From NCBI GenBank assembly GCA_902566635.1, contig CACFJP010000001.1, positions 1 through 64,000 on the forward strand: a stretch of DNA of 64,000 nucleotides. The letters are read 5' to 3'. The translations under genes and the position numbers were made by a program. A model generated the notes under the pieces. The model made no database searches and was not told the origin of the DNA. It worked only from the letters and a program-made list of their open reading frames with translations. Positions 40,158 to 58,292 of this stretch are shown here, piece by piece; position 1 is the first letter of the stretch, and every line of letters starts with the position of its first letter. This DNA comes from an uncultured Bacteroidota bacterium (lineage in GTDB: Bacteria > Bacteroidota > Bacteroidia > Flavobacteriales > Flavobacteriaceae).

Positions 40158-41498
40158 CTAGCCAATGATTGCTCCTGCAATGACTGCAGAAATCAGGGAG
40201 GCTAATGTTCCACCGACGAGCGCACGAATGCCAAATTGGGAAAGTACTTTTCGTTGGCTTGGCGCAAGAGATCCAATACCACCAATTTGAATTCCGATAG
40301 AAGCAAAGTTGGCAAAACCACATAGCATATAGGTTGCCATGATGATGGATTTCTGGTATTGTAGATGCACGATATTTATCGGGTCTTTGAGTTCAGCTAA
40401 TTGGATGTATCCAACAAATTCACTGGCAGCTAGCTTCAAACCAAGCAACTGTCCCATTGGCATAATGTCGGGTGTTGGCACACCCATAATCCACATCAGT
40501 GGGGCGAAAATAATACCGAGAATGGATTCCAGAGAAAAACTGTCATAGATTGTGTTTGCTGCAAACCAATCATTAAGGGTTGTCCAATCACCAATCCAAC
40601 CCAAAACGCCATTAAACATAGCAATAAAAGCAACAAAAACAAGTAGCATACCACCAATAGTGGTGGCAAGTTTGATGCCTTCAACAGTTCCATTTGAAAT
40701 TGCATCCAGAGCGTTGGAGCCTATGTTTTGTATAGAAACACTGACTTCATTTTTGATCTTTTCGGTTTGTGGATAGAGGATTTTCGCAATCACAATTGCA
40801 CCAGGTGCTGCCATGACAGAGGCAGCCAATAAGTGTTTAGCAAATTCCAATCGCATCATAGGGTCATCTCCACCCAAAAAGCCGATGTATGCTGCAAGGA
40901 CCCCACCTGCTACAGTTGCCATACCTCCAATCATGACCAATAGGATTTCAGACTTTGTCATTCGTTCCAAATATGCCTTAATCATGAGTGGTGCTTCGGT
41001 TTGACCTAGGAATATGTTACCTATTACAGACAAACTTTCAGCCCCAGAAATCTTGAGTACTTTAGTCAAGGCCAAAGCGAGGAACTTAACAACAACTTGT
41101 ATAATACCTAAATAAAAGAGAAGTGATGTGAGTGAAGCAAAAAAGACAATGGTTGGCAGAATTTGAAAAACAAAAATAAAGCCATAAGAGTCCGCATTCA
41201 TCAGATCGCCAAAAAGAAAAATACTACCTGCATTGGTAAAGTCAAGGATACTGACAAAGAGTTTTCCTATGCCTTCAAAAATTTGTTGTACCCATCCAAC
41301 ACGCAAAATCCCTATCGCTAGGGTCAATTGAATCAACAGTCCGATGCCGACTGTTTTCCAGGGAATTTTTTTTCGGTCCGAACTACAGGCAAAAGCAATT
41401 GTCAAAAGCACAACAATACCTAGAAGTCCACGCATGATGCCTTGTATTTCCAACCCAGCACTGGGAATGACTTCTGTTTGAGTTATTGTTTCTATCAA
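40158..41498 (-). CDS. Concentrative nucleoside transporter, NupC/CNT family
   Basis: Inner-membrane cation-coupled nucleoside importer, 446 residues, with the CNT motifs GIIQVVVKFLALALTKVL, GNIFLGQTEAPLMIKAYL and a C-terminal CGFANFASIGIQIGG. The frame opens at TTG 41498, nine bases after the preceding stop; the only alternative ATG (41435) begins at the first membrane helix. Together with thyA and DHFR it groups nucleoside salvage with thymidylate synthesis. Confidence 0.93.
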   Translation of the reverse strand: MIETITQTEVIPSAGLEIQGIMRGLLGIVVLLTIAFACSSDRKKIPWKTVGIGLLIQLTLAIGILRVGWVQQIFEGIGKLFVSILDFTNAGSIFLFGDLMNADSYGFIFVFQILPTIVFFASLTSLLFYLGIIQVVVKFLALALTKVLKISGAESLSVIGNIFLGQTEAPLMIKAYLERMTKSEILLVMIGGMATVAGGVLAAYIGFLGGDDPMMRLEFAKHLLAASVMAAPGAIVIAKILYPQTEKIKNEVSVSIQNIGSNALDAISNGTVEGIKLATTIGGMLLVFVAFIAMFNGVLGWIGDWTTLNDWFAANTIYDSFSLESILGIIFAPLMWIMGVPTPDIMPMGQLLGLKLAASEFVGYIQLAELKDPINIVHLQYQKSIIMATYMLCGFANFASIGIQIGGIGSLAPSQRKVLSQFGIRALVGGTLASLISAVIAGAIIG

Positions 41499-49222: not shown

Positions 49223-49231
49223 CCATGCAAA

Positions 49232-49332
49232 AGAGGAAGGATTTGACTGATTGCAACCTCTCAAAAAAAGTGCTAAAACAGCTTTACTTTTTAGAGACTT
49301 ATCGCACTTCTTCTTCGCTAAAAAGTAAAATT
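49232..49332 (+). promoter_or_regulatory. SAM-II-type riboswitch and start-site hairpin before metK
   Basis: Stem AGAGG/CCTCT (49232-49236, 49257-49261) encloses GGATTTGACTGATTGCAA, followed by GTGCTAAAACAG. This order matches SAM-II riboswitches, including the pseudoknot pairs CTG 49247-49249 with CAG 49279-49281 and GCA 49253-49255 with TGC 49271-49273. Downstream, TTTACTTTTTAG (49283-49294) pairs perfectly with CTAAAAAGTAAA (49318-49329), ending 4 bases before the metK ATG and so able to hide the start site. AAGTGC 49268-49273 can alternatively pair with GCACTT 49304-49309 in that hairpin's loop. Confidence 0.78.
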
Positions 49333-49333
49333 A

Positions 49334-50593
49334 ATGCCATATTTTTTTACATCCGAGTCTGTAAGTGAGGGACATCCCGACAAAGTTGCTGATCAAATCA
49401 GTGATGCTTTACTCGATCATTTCATTGCCTTTGACTCTCAAAGTAAAGTTGCTTGTGAAACACTCTTGACCACTGGTCAAGTGATTCTTTCTGGTGAGGT
49501 GAAAAGTAAAACCTATCTGGATGTGCAACACATTGCACGACAAACAATTAATAATATAGGCTACACAGACGATGCCTATCAATTTTCAGGGAACTCTTGT
49601 GGGGTAATTTCACTAATACACGAACAGTCGTCAGATATCAACCGAGGGGTTGATCGCGAAAAAAAGGAAGATCAAGGTGCTGGTGACCAAGGAATTATGT
49701 TTGGTTACGCAAACAATGAAACAGAGAATTATATGCCTTTGGCACTAGCTGTTTCACACAAAATTTTAGAGGTACTTGCCGATTTCCGTCGTACCAAATC
49801 AGATATCACTTATCTACGCCCTGATGCCAAGTCTCAAGTCACAGTCGAGTACAGTGAGGATCATAAGCCCATACGAATTGAAACTGTGGTTGTCTCCACT
49901 CAGCATGATGACTTTGACTCAGACGAAAACATGGCAAGCCAGATTCGAAAGGATATTATTGAAAAGGTAATGCCTAAAGTTATTGCCTCTTTCTCACCTG
50001 AGATTCAGTCTTTGTTTTCTAGCGACTTGACTTACCATATCAATCCAACAGGAAAATTTGTTATCGGAGGACCACATGGCGATACTGGACTTACAGGAAG
50101 AAAAATCATAGTCGATACTTATGGAGGTAAAGGCGCCCATGGTGGGGGTGCATTCAGTGGGAAAGACCCAAGTAAAGTCGATAGAAGTGCTGCTTATGCT
50201 GCTCGGCACATTGCCAAAAATGTAGTGGCTGCTGGCATTGCAGATGAAATCCTTATTCAGTTGAGCTACGCGATAGGCGTTGCTGCACCCACTTCGATTT
50301 TTGTAGACACCTATGGCACATCAAACGTTGACTTGACTGACAGCGAAATCGCAAAAAAATTAGAAACGCTTTTTGACTTGACACCCTATGGTATCGAACA
50401 ACGTCTCAAACTAAGAACACCGATTTATGCTGAGACTGCATCCTATGGTCATATGGGACGCATACCAAAAAAGGTTAAAAAAGTTTTTGAATCTCCTTAC
50501 AATGGAAAAATCGTACACGAAGTTGAGTTGTTCCCCTGGGAAAAGCTCGATGCCGTTTCTTTATTACATTCATCATTTAAAATTAAATCTTAA
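49334..50593 (+). CDS. metK: S-adenosylmethionine synthetase
   Basis: Makes SAM from methionine and ATP. The 419-residue product has [52 protein letters not shown] and [19 protein letters not shown]. First gene of a four-gene operon for methionine and SAM; feedback through the SAM riboswitch directly upstream is expected. Confidence 0.98.
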
Positions 50594-53403: not shown

Positions 53404-54177
53404 CTATTCAAGAACGGTTTCTAATACTTCGTAATATCGTTGGGCGATAAATTCTGCTCCTTGTTCATTATAATGAATATTATCGTAGAGATAGTCATCG
53501 GAAAAGCCATCAAACATATTTACTGCTATAACTTGTGAGCTTTCTTTGGTTTGTTCTTGAGCAATCTTATCAACATCCAAAACAGCTTGTTCAAAAATCG
53601 CTGTTAACTCCTGAGTCATAAAACTCCTTTTTCCTGGGGCAAGCTGTTCAATGAGAATGACGATGTCAGGGTTGTGATTTTGGAAGATATCAATAATACC
53701 ATTAATATTCTCAATTACATTTTCGTAAGGAAGGCCATCCAAAATATCATTTCCACCTGGTGAGCTAAATAGAACAATGTCAGGATATCCGGTTTCACGA
53801 AGTATACTTTCTAATTCTTTAAATATTTGTTTAGATGTCCAGCTCATTTTCCCCTGATGATCAGTATCAAATGAAAGGCCTTTATAATTTGGGTAAAAAC
53901 CCGTTTCCATTTCTGTACCGATGTAGTCAAAGTCCCAGCCCCCATCAATCAGGTCTTTCCATAAATAATATCGATAACTTTCAAACCAAGGATAAAACCC
54001 TTGTACACGAGATGCACCAAGGGGCATGATTTTGTTTTGGATGTTCTTTGTGATTTGATCTTCAGAAGTCTTTCCTTGATCGTGTTCATCATTTTGGCAG
54101 CCAAACAACAGGCACATCCAAAAAACCACAACCAACAAATTTGACAAACCAGTAAATTCTTTACGATATAACATCAT
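53404..54177 (-). CDS. SGNH/GDSL-like hydrolase lipoprotein
   Basis: A 257-residue putative lipoprotein (VVFWMCLLFGC). The SGNH blocks are: block I KIMPLGASRVQGFYPW, with the nucleophile Ser kept but the usual Asp before it replaced by Ala; block III SSPGGNDILDG; block V YDNIHYNEQGAEFIA with the Asp-His pair. Substrate unknown, probably an ester of a polysaccharide or lipid. Lies alone on the minus strand between the methionine and aromatic operons. Confidence 0.82.
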   Translation of the reverse strand: MMLYRKEFTGLSNLLVVVFWMCLLFGCQNDEHDQGKTSEDQITKNIQNKIMPLGASRVQGFYPWFESYRYYLWKDLIDGGWDFDYIGTEMETGFYPNYKGLSFDTDHQGKMSWTSKQIFKELESILRETGYPDIVLFSSPGGNDILDGLPYENVIENINGIIDIFQNHNPDIVILIEQLAPGKRSFMTQELTAIFEQAVLDVDKIAQEQTKESSQVIAVNMFDGFSDDYLYDNIHYNEQGAEFIAQRYYEVLETVLE

Positions 54178-54249
54178 GTGAATTGGTAAACTTTGAACTA
54201 AACCTACAAAAAAAATCATTTAAACATTTTTTTTTTCGGGAGATGCACT

Positions 54250-54257
54250 TACATTTG
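54250..54257 (+). promoter_or_regulatory. Promoter -7 for the pheA operon leader
   Basis: TACATTTG matches TAnnTTTG and ends 8 bases before the leader-peptide ATG, leaving an almost leaderless short ORF. Confidence 0.65.
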
Positions 54258-54265
54258 CATTCATT

Positions 54266-54331
54266 ATGAATAATACGGTAAACTATTACAGCGCTTTTTA
54301 TACTTCTCAAATGGAGCAGGACGGTTTGTAA
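54266..54331 (+). CDS. Aromatic-rich leader peptide of the pheA operon
   Basis: A 21-codon ORF (start MNNTVNYYSAFYT, end MEQDGL) with three Tyr and one Phe codon packed in codons 7-12 (54284-54301). It ends 62 bases before pheA and overlaps the 5' arm of the antiterminator. This is the classic arrangement for ribosome stalling under Tyr/Phe starvation. No separate function of the peptide is expected. Confidence 0.75.
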   Translation: MNNTVNYYSAFYTSQMEQDGL

Positions 54332-54391
54332 TAATATACGATGAAACAAATACAAAAAAGTCCTGATAACAACATCAGGGCTTTTTTTTTG
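54317..54391 (+). promoter_or_regulatory. Transcription attenuator before pheA
   Basis: Terminator: AGTCCTGAT (54359-54367), loop AACAAC, ATCAGGGCT (54374-54382), then a run of Ts to 54390. Antiterminator: CAGGAC (54317-54322) pairs exactly with GTCCTG (54360-54365), and TTTGTA (54325-54330) pairs with TACAAA (54351-54356). The two folds share 54359-54365 and exclude each other. A ribosome at the leader stop codon would cover the antiterminator arm and allow termination; one stalled at the Tyr/Phe codons would leave it free. Confidence 0.82.
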
Positions 54392-54393
54392 AT

Positions 54394-55215
54394 ATGAAGA
54401 CGAGAGTTGCAATACAAGGAATTAAAGGGTCATTTCACGATGAAGTGGCACAACTATATTTTGGAAATCAAGTAGAGATATTGGCATGTGATTCTTTCGA
54501 CCAACTTGTACAGTCGATTGTGTATGACAATTGCAGACAAGCCGTCATGGCGATCGAAAACTCCATTGCTGGTTCGATTTTACCCAATTATGGCTTGCTC
54601 GATCAATACGGATTATCTATCGTTGGGGAACATTTGCTGAGCATCAGTCACAATCTGATGGCCATGCCTGGTCAAAGCATTTCAGATATTCAAGAAGTAC
54701 ACTCCCATCCGATGGCACTTCTGCAGTGTAAGCAATTTTTTCATGCATACCCTGATATCAAACTTGTTGAAAGTTCAGACACTGCAGCTGTTGCGAAAGA
54801 AATCAGCGATAACAATCAAATTGGAAAAGGGGCTATTGCCAGCCAGCTGGCAGCAGACTTATATGGTCTTCAGGTCTTAAGCGAGTCTATTCAAACTATT
54901 AAAAACAATGTTACTCGTTTTGTGATTGTTCAAAAATCGGCAGACCAAACGATCTCAAATATTTCAAAAGCGTCTTGGAAATTTGTTTTAAATCACAAGC
55001 GTGGAAGCCTGGCAACAGCCCTCAACGTTATGAGTGATTGCAAATTGAACCTCACTAAAATTCAATCTCTACCAGTTATTAAGACTCCTGGGAAGTATGC
55101 CTTTTTTGTCGATGTGACCTTTAATAACCCTGATGACTATCGCAAAGCTAAGTCCCTTTTGGAAATTATGGCAACCTCATTCAAAATCCTAGGTGAATAC
55201 CAATCAAAATCATGA
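54394..55215 (+). CDS. pheA: Prephenate dehydratase
   Basis: Converts prephenate to phenylpyruvate in phenylalanine synthesis. The 273-residue standalone enzyme has GIKGSFHDEVAQLYFG, MAIENSIAGSILPNYGLL, the catalytic TRF motif in KNNVTRFVIVQ and a C-terminal ACT domain (FVLNHKRGSLATALNVMSDC) for phenylalanine feedback. No chorismate mutase is fused here; that activity is on the DAHP synthase three genes on. First structural gene of the attenuated operon. Confidence 0.96.
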   Translation: MKTRVAIQGIKGSFHDEVAQLYFGNQVEILACDSFDQLVQSIVYDNCRQAVMAIENSIAGSILPNYGLLDQYGLSIVGEHLLSISHNLMAMPGQSISDIQEVHSHPMALLQCKQFFHAYPDIKLVESSDTAAVAKEISDNNQIGKGAIASQLAADLYGLQVLSESIQTIKNNVTRFVIVQKSADQTISNISKASWKFVLNHKRGSLATALNVMSDCKLNLTKIQSLPVIKTPGKYAFFVDVTFNNPDDYRKAKSLLEIMATSFKILGEYQSKS

Positions 55216-56360
55216 CTACAGCAAGAAGATTAGATCGTGTTCATGAGTATTATTTCTCTAAAAAATTACGAGAGGTACGTGCAATGATTGAAGAGGGAAA
55301 GCCGGTGATTAATATGGGTATTGGAAGTCCCGATTTACCACCACCTCAGGAGGTAGTCGATGCATTGCACAACAGCATGTTGCACCCCACTGCACACAAA
55401 TACCAAAGCTATCAGGGCATTCCGGCATTGCGCAAAGCGATTGCAGATTTTTATCATAACAAATATGGTGTAACTCTGAATCCAACAAATGAAATATTGC
55501 CTTTGCTTGGCTCTAAAGAAGGAGTTATGCATATTTCAATGGCTTTTCTCAACCCTGGAGATCAAGTACTTGTGCCTAACCCAGGATATCCAACCTATAC
55601 TTCTGTCACTCGCTTGGTGGAAGCCGAGCCTGTATTTTATAATCTTGATGAAAAAAATCATTGGCATCCAAAACTAGACCAGCTAAAAAGCCTTGACTGT
55701 ACCAAGATTCGTTTGATGTGGATCAATAGTCCACACATGCCCACTGGAACAACGATTGATTCTCAACTGTTGCGTGACCTCATTACATGGGCTGCCCAAA
55801 ATGAAATTTTATTGGTTAATGACAACCCCTATAGTTTTGTGCTCACAGATCACCCAAAAAGTATATTTCAAAACCAAAAGGATAAATCAAACATCATGGA
55901 GCTCAATTCACTGAGTAAATCATTTAACATGGCAGGTTGGCGAATAGGAATGTTGAGTGGATCGAAAGAAAATATCAATCATGTGCTAAAGGTCAAAAGC
56001 AATATGGATTCGGGTATGTTTTATGGGATTCAGCAAGGTGCTATTGCTGCCTTGCAACAGCCACAAGCGTGGTATGATCATATCAATGCTGTATACCAAG
56101 AACGAAGAGAACAAATGTGGAAACTGGCAGAAGCCATGGGCTGTACTTTTAGCAAGAATAACAGTGGAATGTTCGTTTGGGCAAAACTGCCAGAAGGAAA
56201 CACAAATAGCGAGGATTTCATTGACCAACTTCTACATGAGAAACATATTTTCTTAGCACCAGGAACTATTTTCGGAAGTGCTGGTCAAGGATATATACGT
56301 TTCTCGTTGTGTGTTGAGAAAAGTCAGATAACAGTAGCTTTAAATCGATTGGACAAATGA
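55212..56360 (+). CDS. Class I/II aminotransferase (aromatic or aspartate type)
   Basis: PLP-dependent transaminase, 382 residues: GIGSPDLPPPQEVVDALHN, HKYQSYQGIPALRKAIADFY, NDNPYSFVLT and the PLP lysine in LNSLSKSFNMAGWRIGM. Placed between pheA and tyrA, it probably makes Phe and Tyr from phenylpyruvate and hydroxyphenylpyruvate. The ATG overlaps the pheA stop. Confidence 0.93.
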   Translation: MTTARRLDRVHEYYFSKKLREVRAMIEEGKPVINMGIGSPDLPPPQEVVDALHNSMLHPTAHKYQSYQGIPALRKAIADFYHNKYGVTLNPTNEILPLLGSKEGVMHISMAFLNPGDQVLVPNPGYPTYTSVTRLVEAEPVFYNLDEKNHWHPKLDQLKSLDCTKIRLMWINSPHMPTGTTIDSQLLRDLITWAAQNEILLVNDNPYSFVLTDHPKSIFQNQKDKSNIMELNSLSKSFNMAGWRIGMLSGSKENINHVLKVKSNMDSGMFYGIQQGAIAALQQPQAWYDHINAVYQERREQMWKLAEAMGCTFSKNNSGMFVWAKLPEGNTNSEDFIDQLLHEKHIFLAPGTIFGSAGQGYIRFSLCVEKSQITVALNRLDK

Positions 56361-57220
56361 AAGTAGGATTAATTGGTGTTGGTTTGATGAATGGATCTTT
56401 GGCATTGGATTTAAAAAGCGCACATCCTAGTGTTGCGATCTATGGCGTAAGTCGAAGAGTATCAACATTGGTAAATGCAAAGCAATTGGGTTTGATTGAT
56501 TACCAGGTGACAATCAATGACATGAGAGACATGGACTTTGTTTCAATTGCTATACCAGTGACAGCCACTGTCGATATTTTACCCAGTCTTCTCGATTCAG
56601 TAGGCTCAAACACATTGGTCATTGATATGGGTTCGACCAAAACAGCTATATGCGAATCGGTATCTAAGCATCCAAAGCGCGAACAGTTTTTGGCTTGCCA
56701 TCCAATTGCAGGAACTGAATTTTCAGGACCAGAAGCTGCCATTCACAATTTATACCAAGGCAAGGTAAATATGCTTTGTGAAACACAAAAAACAAGACCA
56801 GATTTGTTGAAGCGTGCACATGCTATCTTCACCAATTTGGGAATGCATATACGTGAGATTGATCCCAGCGAGCATGATAGAAATATTGCTTACGTATCAC
56901 ACCTATCGCATATCACCTCATTTATGCTCGGAAAAACTGTTATGGAAAAGGAAGCTGATGAGCAAAGCATATTCGACATGGCTGGTAGTGGTTTCTCCTC
57001 AACTGTTCGTTTGGCAAAGAGTTCACCCGAAATGTGGATGCCAATCTTTCGACATAACAAACACAACGTAATTGAAACCTTAGATGAATACATCTCCAAT
57101 ATGGAGAATTTTAAATCTCTATTGGTAAATGATGATTACACGACATTAGTTGAAGAAATGAAGAATATAAATAAGATTAGACACATATTAAAACCTGAAA
57201 ATAAAACAAATGGAAAATAA
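56357..57220 (+). CDS. tyrA: Prephenate dehydrogenase
   Basis: NAD(P)-dependent conversion of prephenate to hydroxyphenylpyruvate. The 287 residues start with the dinucleotide fold VGLIGVGLMNGSLALDL and contain VIDMGSTKTAIC, ACHPIAGTEFSGPEAA and YVSHLSHITSFML with the catalytic His. No ACT domain is present. Overlaps its neighbours on both sides. Confidence 0.95.
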   Translation: MKVGLIGVGLMNGSLALDLKSAHPSVAIYGVSRRVSTLVNAKQLGLIDYQVTINDMRDMDFVSIAIPVTATVDILPSLLDSVGSNTLVIDMGSTKTAICESVSKHPKREQFLACHPIAGTEFSGPEAAIHNLYQGKVNMLCETQKTRPDLLKRAHAIFTNLGMHIREIDPSEHDRNIAYVSHLSHITSFMLGKTVMEKEADEQSIFDMAGSGFSSTVRLAKSSPEMWMPIFRHNKHNVIETLDEYISNMENFKSLLVNDDYTTLVEEMKNINKIRHILKPENKTNGK

Positions 57221-58292
57221 TAAAGCCATGGGAGAATGGCTGCATGCCTTTGACCTCCCTCACCCCCTAGTCATTGCTGGTCCTTGCAGCGCAGAAACTG
57301 AAGAACAAGTGATGGATATCGCACATCAACTGAAAGATACAGATGCTACAATTTATCGTGCAGGAATTTGGAAACCAAGAACACGCCCTGGAAACTTTGA
57401 GGGTGTTGGCGCCATTGGATTAAAGTGGCTGCAGCGCGTCAAAGAAGAAACGGGTATGATGACCGCCACAGAAGTGGCAAATAAAGATCATGTAAAGTTG
57501 GCACTAGAAGCAGACATTGATGTGCTTTGGATTGGTGCTCGTTCTACTGTTAGCCCCTTCATTGTTCAGGAGATTGCCGATGCCCTTCAAGGCACAGATA
57601 AAATTGTTCTTGTAAAAAATCCAGTCAATCCTGATTTGTCTCTTTGGCTTGGGGGGATAGAGCGTTTATACACAGCTGACATCAAAAGATTAGGTGTGAT
57701 TCACCGTGGATTTTCAAGCTATGCTAAAACAAAATATCGCAACAATCCAGAATGGCAATTGGCAATTGAACTGCAAAATCGATTTCCCGATCTTCCATTG
57801 ATTTGTGATCCTTCTCACATTTGTGGGCGTCGTGATATTTTACAAGACGTATCACAAACAGCCTTAGACTTGAACTTTGATGGTTTGATGATCGAAACCC
57901 ATCGAGACCCTGATAATGCCTGGAGTGATGCTGCACAGCAAATCACGCCTGACACTCTTGTTCTAATGATGAAAGATCTTCGGATTCGTAAAACAACAGC
58001 TGAAGCTGAGAGTTATGTGAACAGGCTCGACACACTTCGCGCACAAATCGACATCATCGACCACTCGATCCTTGAAACACTAGGGAAACGAATGAATATC
58101 TCTGTTGATATTGGTACGCTAAAAAAAGAGCATAATGTTGCTGTTTTGCAATCCAAGCGTTGGAATGAAATCCTAGGAAAGATGATTTTGGAAGGCGAAG
58201 GTCATGGATTGAGTGAAGAATTTGTATTGCGTATGTTCAAAGCAATTCACCAGGAATCGATTAACCATCAAGAAAAGGTGATCAATACCTAA
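57210..58292 (+). CDS. Bifunctional DAHP synthase/chorismate mutase
   Basis: First shikimate-pathway enzyme fused to chorismate mutase, 360 residues. The N-terminal DAHP synthase (class I-beta, KDPG-like) shows VIAGPCSAETEEQVMDIA, GIWKPRTRPGNFEGVG, LVKNPVNPDLSLWLGGIERL and CDPSHICGRRD. The AroQ mutase occupies about residues 272-358 (RLDTLRAQIDIIDHSILETL, SKRWNEILGK). The mutase feeds prephenate to PheA and TyrA encoded just upstream, and in this fusion class often serves as allosteric sensor. Confidence 0.96.
   Translation: MENNKAMGEWLHAFDLPHPLVIAGPCSAETEEQVMDIAHQLKDTDATIYRAGIWKPRTRPGNFEGVGAIGLKWLQRVKEETGMMTATEVANKDHVKLALEADIDVLWIGARSTVSPFIVQEIADALQGTDKIVLVKNPVNPDLSLWLGGIERLYTADIKRLGVIHRGFSSYAKTKYRNNPEWQLAIELQNRFPDLPLICDPSHICGRRDILQDVSQTALDLNFDGLMIETHRDPDNAWSDAAQQITPDTLVLMMKDLRIRKTTAEAESYVNRLDTLRAQIDIIDHSILETLGKRMNISVDIGTLKKEHNVAVLQSKRWNEILGKMILEGEGHGLSEEFVLRMFKAIHQESINHQEKVINT

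Follow-up and report, generated by a model that had tools for sequence, protein, structure and literature searches.

The stretch analyzed here, called the window throughout, comprises 64,000 nucleotides from an uncultured member of the Flavobacteriaceae and carries an operon for aromatic amino acid synthesis in the order pheA, aminotransferase, tyrA and DAHP synthase/chorismate mutase, the ends of the genes overlapping. Directly 5' of pheA, a segment at 54250 to 54396 holds a promoter box, a short leader ORF, a terminator and an antiterminator. The terminator serves no upstream gene, because the neighboring gene, at 53404 to 54219, lies on the minus strand and points away from pheA; the idea that the leader hairpin terminates that gene was discarded on this ground. 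We consider the segment to be a ribosome-mediated transcription attenuator of a Phe/Tyr operon, a reading that we hold with a probability of about 0.9. The features on which it draws are the following.

54250 to 54257, forward strand: TAnnTTTG-type -7 promoter box TACATTTG, from the sequence and the position rule of PMC9723704
54266 to 54331, forward strand: leader ORF MNNTVNYYSAFYTSQMEQDGL, 21 codons and a TAA stop, from translation of the sequence and from relatives
54284 to 54301, forward strand: candidate regulatory codons Tyr7 and Tyr8 (54284 to 54289) and Phe11 and Tyr12 (54296 to 54301), from translation
54303 to 54316, forward strand: hairpin H1, CTTC/GGAG (54303 to 54306 with 54313 to 54316), weak here and longer in most relatives, from folding and a half-swap test
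54317 to 54330, forward strand: antiterminator 5' strand, CAGGAC (54317 to 54322) and TTTGTA (54325 to 54330), within the last leader codons and the stop, from folding and a family test
54351 to 54365, forward strand: antiterminator 3' strand, TACAAA (54351 to 54356) and then GTCCTG (54360 to 54365), the latter common to the terminator, from folding and a family test
54360 to 54390, forward strand: intrinsic terminator, a hairpin at 54360 to 54381 (GTCCTGAT/ATCAGGGC) and a run of nine Ts at 54382 to 54390, from sequence, folding and covariation
54394 to 55215, forward strand: pheA, prephenate dehydratase (PF00800)
55212 to 56360, forward strand: class I/II aminotransferase (PF00155)
56357 to 57220, forward strand: tyrA, prephenate dehydrogenase (PF02153, PF20463; NF006307 above cut-off)
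57210 to 58292, forward strand: DAHP synthase-chorismate mutase fusion (PF00793, PF01817)

In the proposed mechanism, polymerase would start just 5' of the leader ORF, with a ribosome behind it. With charged tRNA-Phe and tRNA-Tyr plentiful, that ribosome would reach the stop codon and cover the strand CAGGAC...TTTGTA; no antiterminator could then form, the terminator would fold, and transcription would stop before pheA. With either tRNA in short supply, the ribosome would wait at codons 7 and 8 or 11 and 12 and leave CAGGAC...TTTGTA bare, and the bare strand would capture GTCCTG in the antiterminator, so that polymerase would read into pheA, the aminotransferase, tyrA and the DAHP synthase.

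The elements that this scheme needs can be read in the window as the earlier note had described them. Translation of 54266 to 54331 agrees with the 21-codon ORF claimed there, with Tyr-Tyr at codons 7 and 8 and Phe-Tyr at codons 11 and 12, and this ORF, predicted to be translated, carries codons for amino acids that the operon makes. Likewise, the terminator with its nine Ts and the two-part antiterminator using its 5' arm were confirmed, as was the TAnnTTTG promoter core. In the antiterminator, CAGGAC pairs with GTCCTG and TTTGTA with TACAAA; the two folds are mutually exclusive because GTCCTG is part of both. The MFE structure of the whole window leader is the terminator form (-28.0 kcal/mol, z -3.5, equalled by 1 of 200 shuffles), and that of the leader without the terminator 3' arm is the antiterminator (-14.4, z -3.1, equalled by 3 of 200). 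Such single-sequence z-scores are modest alone, and it is the sequence comparison across the family that excludes chance.

For that comparison, query P0001 matched 130 of 149 same-family genomes, the window's own included, and all 130 pheA upstream regions (L002 to L131) were read. A terminator scan that required a T-run was passed by 124 of them, and 123 of the 124 have a complete aromatic ATG leader; the remaining locus (L063) is cut by a contig end. The nearest relatives (L187 and L192, with pheA 88 to 89% identical to that of the window) keep the YYY...FY arrangement, their leaders holding five and six Phe or Tyr codons. Over the 123 leaders, Phe and Tyr make up 37.1% of codons in frame versus 12.9% and 17.1% off frame, and each of the two other frames is interrupted by stops in 111. 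The median leader has nine Phe and Tyr codons and the window, with four, the fewest; the picks favor Phe/Tyr-rich ORFs, which biases these counts upward and the frame contrast less so. The start of one leader (L196) was probably called wrongly.

The hairpins changed together with their partners in the same set. RNAalifold found compensatory changes in eight of the nine predicted terminator pairs (124 sequences). Across 16 arm classes, antiterminator strands on average matched the arms of their own class more closely than they matched permuted arms (14.3 versus 11.2 +/- 0.5, equalled in 0 of 2,000 permutations), examples of the class pairs being CAGGAC/GTCCTG, CGAGAC/GTCTCG, CGGGAC/GTCCCG, CCGGG/CCCGG and AAGGC/GCCTT. 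Several classes were equalled by one to three others in this comparison, and in the single-member class L107 foreign arms fit better than its own. These family tests cover the first helix, of the CAGGAC/GTCCTG type; the TTTGTA/TACAAA helix was read in the window. On a MAFFT alignment, 82% of antiterminator cells pair versus 27 to 55% in slid controls, and two of five measures were indistinct from shuffles (149 and 51 of 500); these column figures understate the antiterminator, because its strands are one to two columns out of register between clades. In weaker, per-sequence shuffle tests, 59 of the 124 sequences reached p <= 0.02 and 96 reached p <= 0.1. The terminator appears in the whole-leader MFE structure of 122 of the 123 leaders, and the antiterminator is the MFE structure in only 76 of 123 transcripts cut at the terminator 5' arm, the window among them. 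The two checks that the earlier note had proposed on relatives, for conserved Tyr/Phe codons and for covariation of the exclusive hairpins, thus came out in its favor, and both support its suggestion that a shortage of Tyr or Phe would stall the ribosome and open the operon.

The placement of codons and stop is likewise what an attenuator would need. The last Phe or Tyr codon ends 5 to 15 nt 5' of the antiterminator, most commonly 11 nt (57 of 123 leaders), and the stop codon begins 4 to 11 nt 3' of the end of the antiterminator strand in 96 and before that end in 12. In the window these distances are 15 nt, the longest of the 123, and 6 nt. A ribosome is reported to cover up to 12 nt downstream of a stop codon (PMC4833913). 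Stalled at the last aromatic codon, a ribosome would leave the strand more or less free; once at the stop codon, it would mask that strand.

Several loci of the family depart from this layout. In G013 (L050) and G080 (L093), leader and terminator stand farther from pheA, ~525 and ~335 nt 5' of it, with something intervening; in L084 the leader is present and the terminator imperfect; and in L089 and L102, 2 of the 130 loci, no such leader was found before pheA. A covariance model matched ~915 nt before pheA in G128 (L126). The alignment behind that model drew on the window copy and on most of the 30 genomes that were then searched, so matches in those genomes follow by construction; among four genomes outside the alignment (G013, G080, G128 and G023), three matched and one did not, and G087, inside it, was missed. 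Three weaker matches in the window's own genome (L268 to L270; E values of 0.06, 0.23 and 0.52) were rejected as ordinary terminator-like sequence by eye. Leader and terminator were called in 79 of 80 loci from named relatives, including Flavobacterium, Winogradskyella, Leeuwenhoekiella and Aquimarina; the eightieth (L193) contains Ns, and its leader is visible by eye.

In a sample of the phylum, 119 of 138 genomes were matched, the window's own included. The leader occurs in 13 of 13 same-family genomes, five of which were also in the family sample, and in 12 of 14 matched genomes of the same class outside the order, in eight by scan (L146, L147, L149, L153, L154, L155, L157 and L159) and in L156, L158, L160 and L163 after the leader start, the leader or the terminator had been filled in by eye. 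The other two (L143 and L145) have no leader, and their pheA lies directly 3' of a long open frame. Two genomes of the same order and another family matched weakly; the one examined (L181) has no leader. Outside the class, an ATG-leader scan of 21 of the 89 matches gave three with a leader (L148, L150 and L151), in which pheA is 43 to 45% identical to that of the window and closer to it than the pheA genes of their neighbors are, which suggests transfer of the operon together with its leader. Two further observations concern single loci. In L163, pheA is preceded by a tandem pair of aromatic leaders, each with a terminator, the second recognized by eye, and two Flavo-1 RNA matches, one per strand, lie near pheA in L134 (2701 to 2778 and 88 to 163; 78.6 and 70.6 bits).

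Other explanations of the segment share some of this evidence. The leader ORF might act on translation, the hairpin blocking initiation at pheA rather than polymerase, and indeed the hairpin ends at 54381, 12 nt before the ATG at 54394. However, a run of nine Ts follows the hairpin; among relatives this argument carries only as far as the 124 of 130 loci that passed a scan with a T-run among its requirements, and the leaders of G013 and G080 are too far from pheA for direct occlusion. We regard translational control as improbable. The alternative that we would place ahead of it, unlikely as it also is, is that the leader is real but the window copy is degenerating and now senses poorly: its Phe/Tyr count is the lowest and its spacing the longest of the 123, and its H1 is weak, but ORF, antiterminator and terminator are intact both in the window and in L187 and L192.

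Two further possibilities would change the identity of the sensor. Stalling could depend on the nascent peptide, acting in the tunnel together with a free amino acid, and motifs shared within clades, such as NWFYFFFSK and FWNGFYFYFFF, are compatible with this; yet the peptide varies between clades, and it is the aromatic codons and their spacing that persist, which makes arrest by the peptide a slim prospect, a shade below translational control. The least probable of all is that a metabolite riboswitch, a T-box or an RNA-binding protein senses the amino acids and the ORF is incidental. Nothing favors this except that the operon is a biosynthetic one with a structured leader, and a conserved frame with codons for the pathway products and a conserved stop position argue against it. 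No Rfam family reaches its gathering score at the leader, T-boxes and known riboswitches included; an RNA-binding protein not yet described would retain a very small chance as the sensor. The sole Rfam match in the window is a SAM-II riboswitch at 49227 to 49286 (75.6 bits), just 5' of an ORF at 49334 that resembles S-adenosylmethionine synthetase.

Ribosome-mediated attenuation is the reading retained here. The -7 box is placed at -12 to -5 from the start in PMC9723704, which puts the predicted transcript start at ~54262 and the predicted 5' UTR at ~4 nt. A TAnnTTWG box occurs at the matching place in 114 of the 123 family leaders, compared with 15 matches at up to three shifted places per sequence in a control, and the predicted 5' UTR is 4 to 18 nt in 109 of the 114; where several boxes fit, the one nearest 10 nt was taken. 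By comparison, 87% of predicted F. johnsoniae transcripts are reported to have more than 10 nt (PMC6847099), and the reported median 5' UTR of F. psychrophilum is 24 nt (PMC9723704). The ORF had been called nearly leaderless; the predicted UTR of the window copy stands at the short end of a family that is, by these predictions, short-leadered rather than leaderless.

Hairpin H1, absent from the earlier note, lies directly 5' of CAGGAC, with four pairs in the window. In the family it is built from the last aromatic codons and ends at or near the antiterminator. A half-swap test over 41 clusters supports it (15.6 versus 12.5 +/- 0.35, 0 of 5,000), and column counts on the MAFFT alignment do so only in part: 79.1% of cells pair versus 60 to 77% in slid controls, shuffles do as well on two of five measures (169 and 227 of 500), and double changes are more numerous in one of the slides (46 versus 38). 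E. coli-type trp, phe and his attenuators have in addition a protector (1:2) pairing with the antiterminator's 5' strand. No such pairing was detected across the family (10.4 versus 10.3 +/- 0.16, 765 of 3,000 permutations as high, 99 representatives) by a test whose positive control, the antiterminator with the terminator arm, was reached in 0 of 3,000 permutations; in the window alone, the MFE structure shows an upstream UAUUACA paired with UGUAAUA.

Trp codons are present in 84 of the 123 leaders and sit in the clade-wise motifs (NWFYFFF, FWNGFYFYFFF). It is plausible that one leader senses Phe, Tyr and Trp together, because the DAHP synthase of the operon also feeds Trp; common descent alone could also have kept the Trp codons. 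These features might amount to a distinct Bacteroidia layout, without a protector, in which H1, containing the last aromatic codons, sits right against the antiterminator and in which Phe, Tyr and often Trp are sensed together, matching the DAHP synthase of the operon. We put this forward tentatively, as a possibility that we do not favor at present. If it is true, read-through should be the default of a leader that is not translated, and H1 may either make polymerase pause or stack on the antiterminator. The layouts could be told apart, in that loss of leader translation would raise expression without a protector and lower it in the E. coli type.

Elsewhere in the window's own genome, a candidate attenuator lies before hisG (L183, 321 to 428; contig C10, ~41020 to 41127), with a leader MKKHTHIHSLFVLSQTS containing three His codons. 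By eye, the leader is followed by a terminator, AAACCCGTTTGA...TCAAGCGGGTTT, and pairing is possible between its 5' arm and a CAGACGAGTT strand; no Rfam match came near threshold there. No clear leader was seen by eye before thrA, ilvD or the PF04715 match of that genome. A T-run shortly before ilvD (L186, ~1320 to 1350) has by eye no obvious hairpin or branched-chain leader.

The nearest described RNAs resemble this leader to different degrees. Scans of the window and relatives gave no Rfam family at threshold for the pheA leaders. The best sub-threshold match of the window is Phe_leader, RF01859 (28.4 bits, E 0.0064, full model, gathering score 55); of 20 relatives scanned, four score 30 to 32 bits against it. 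Bacteroid-trp, RF01692, comes from the same phylum but precedes trp rather than pheA (26.3 bits, E 0.59, gathering score 49); Rfam names it a tryptophan peptide leader, and PMC2864571 lists it as a likely cis-regulatory RNA and not a switch. In F. psychrophilum, a 2021 study reports clues for leader-peptide attenuation before amino acid operons, and pheA and hisG have structured elements at the 5' side there, which occur in other genera too and have no Rfam hit (PMC9723704). That pheA element, from the same gene and family, is likely identical with the attenuator described here, whose peptide, structure and spacing do not figure in that study's section on 5' cis-regulatory RNAs; a limited literature search recognized no further account of this pheA leader. 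Short uORFs with notable Phe and Tyr codons before shikimate genes have been predicted to be regulatory (PMC6429828). A 2010 paper stated that, before its own Firmicutes case, leader peptides were undemonstrated outside Proteobacteria and Actinobacteria (PMC2965389). As to the view that the element is notable for its phylum, attenuation as such is not new there, given Bacteroid-trp and the F. psychrophilum report.

The locus is best described as a well-supported attenuator, on comparative evidence, of already known mechanism and with possible variant features. It adds a large alignment of aromatic attenuators, from bacteria that do without Shine-Dalgarno sites when translation starts, and a possible natural reporter for transcription-translation coupling in Bacteroidota. 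The closest known parallel is the pheL leader of E. coli pheA, the RF01859 type named above, which combines terminator/antiterminator logic with aromatic leader codons. It precedes the same gene, but the family described here adds Tyr codons, and often Trp codons, to those for Phe, its leaders are without a detected protector pairing, and the window operon also makes Tyr and DAHP. In the breadth of what would be sensed, there is a likeness to the multivalent attenuators of E. coli ilvGMEDA and thrABC, in which one leader senses several amino acids made by the operon; here the set would be aromatic, Phe and Tyr, with Trp in 84 of the 123 leaders.
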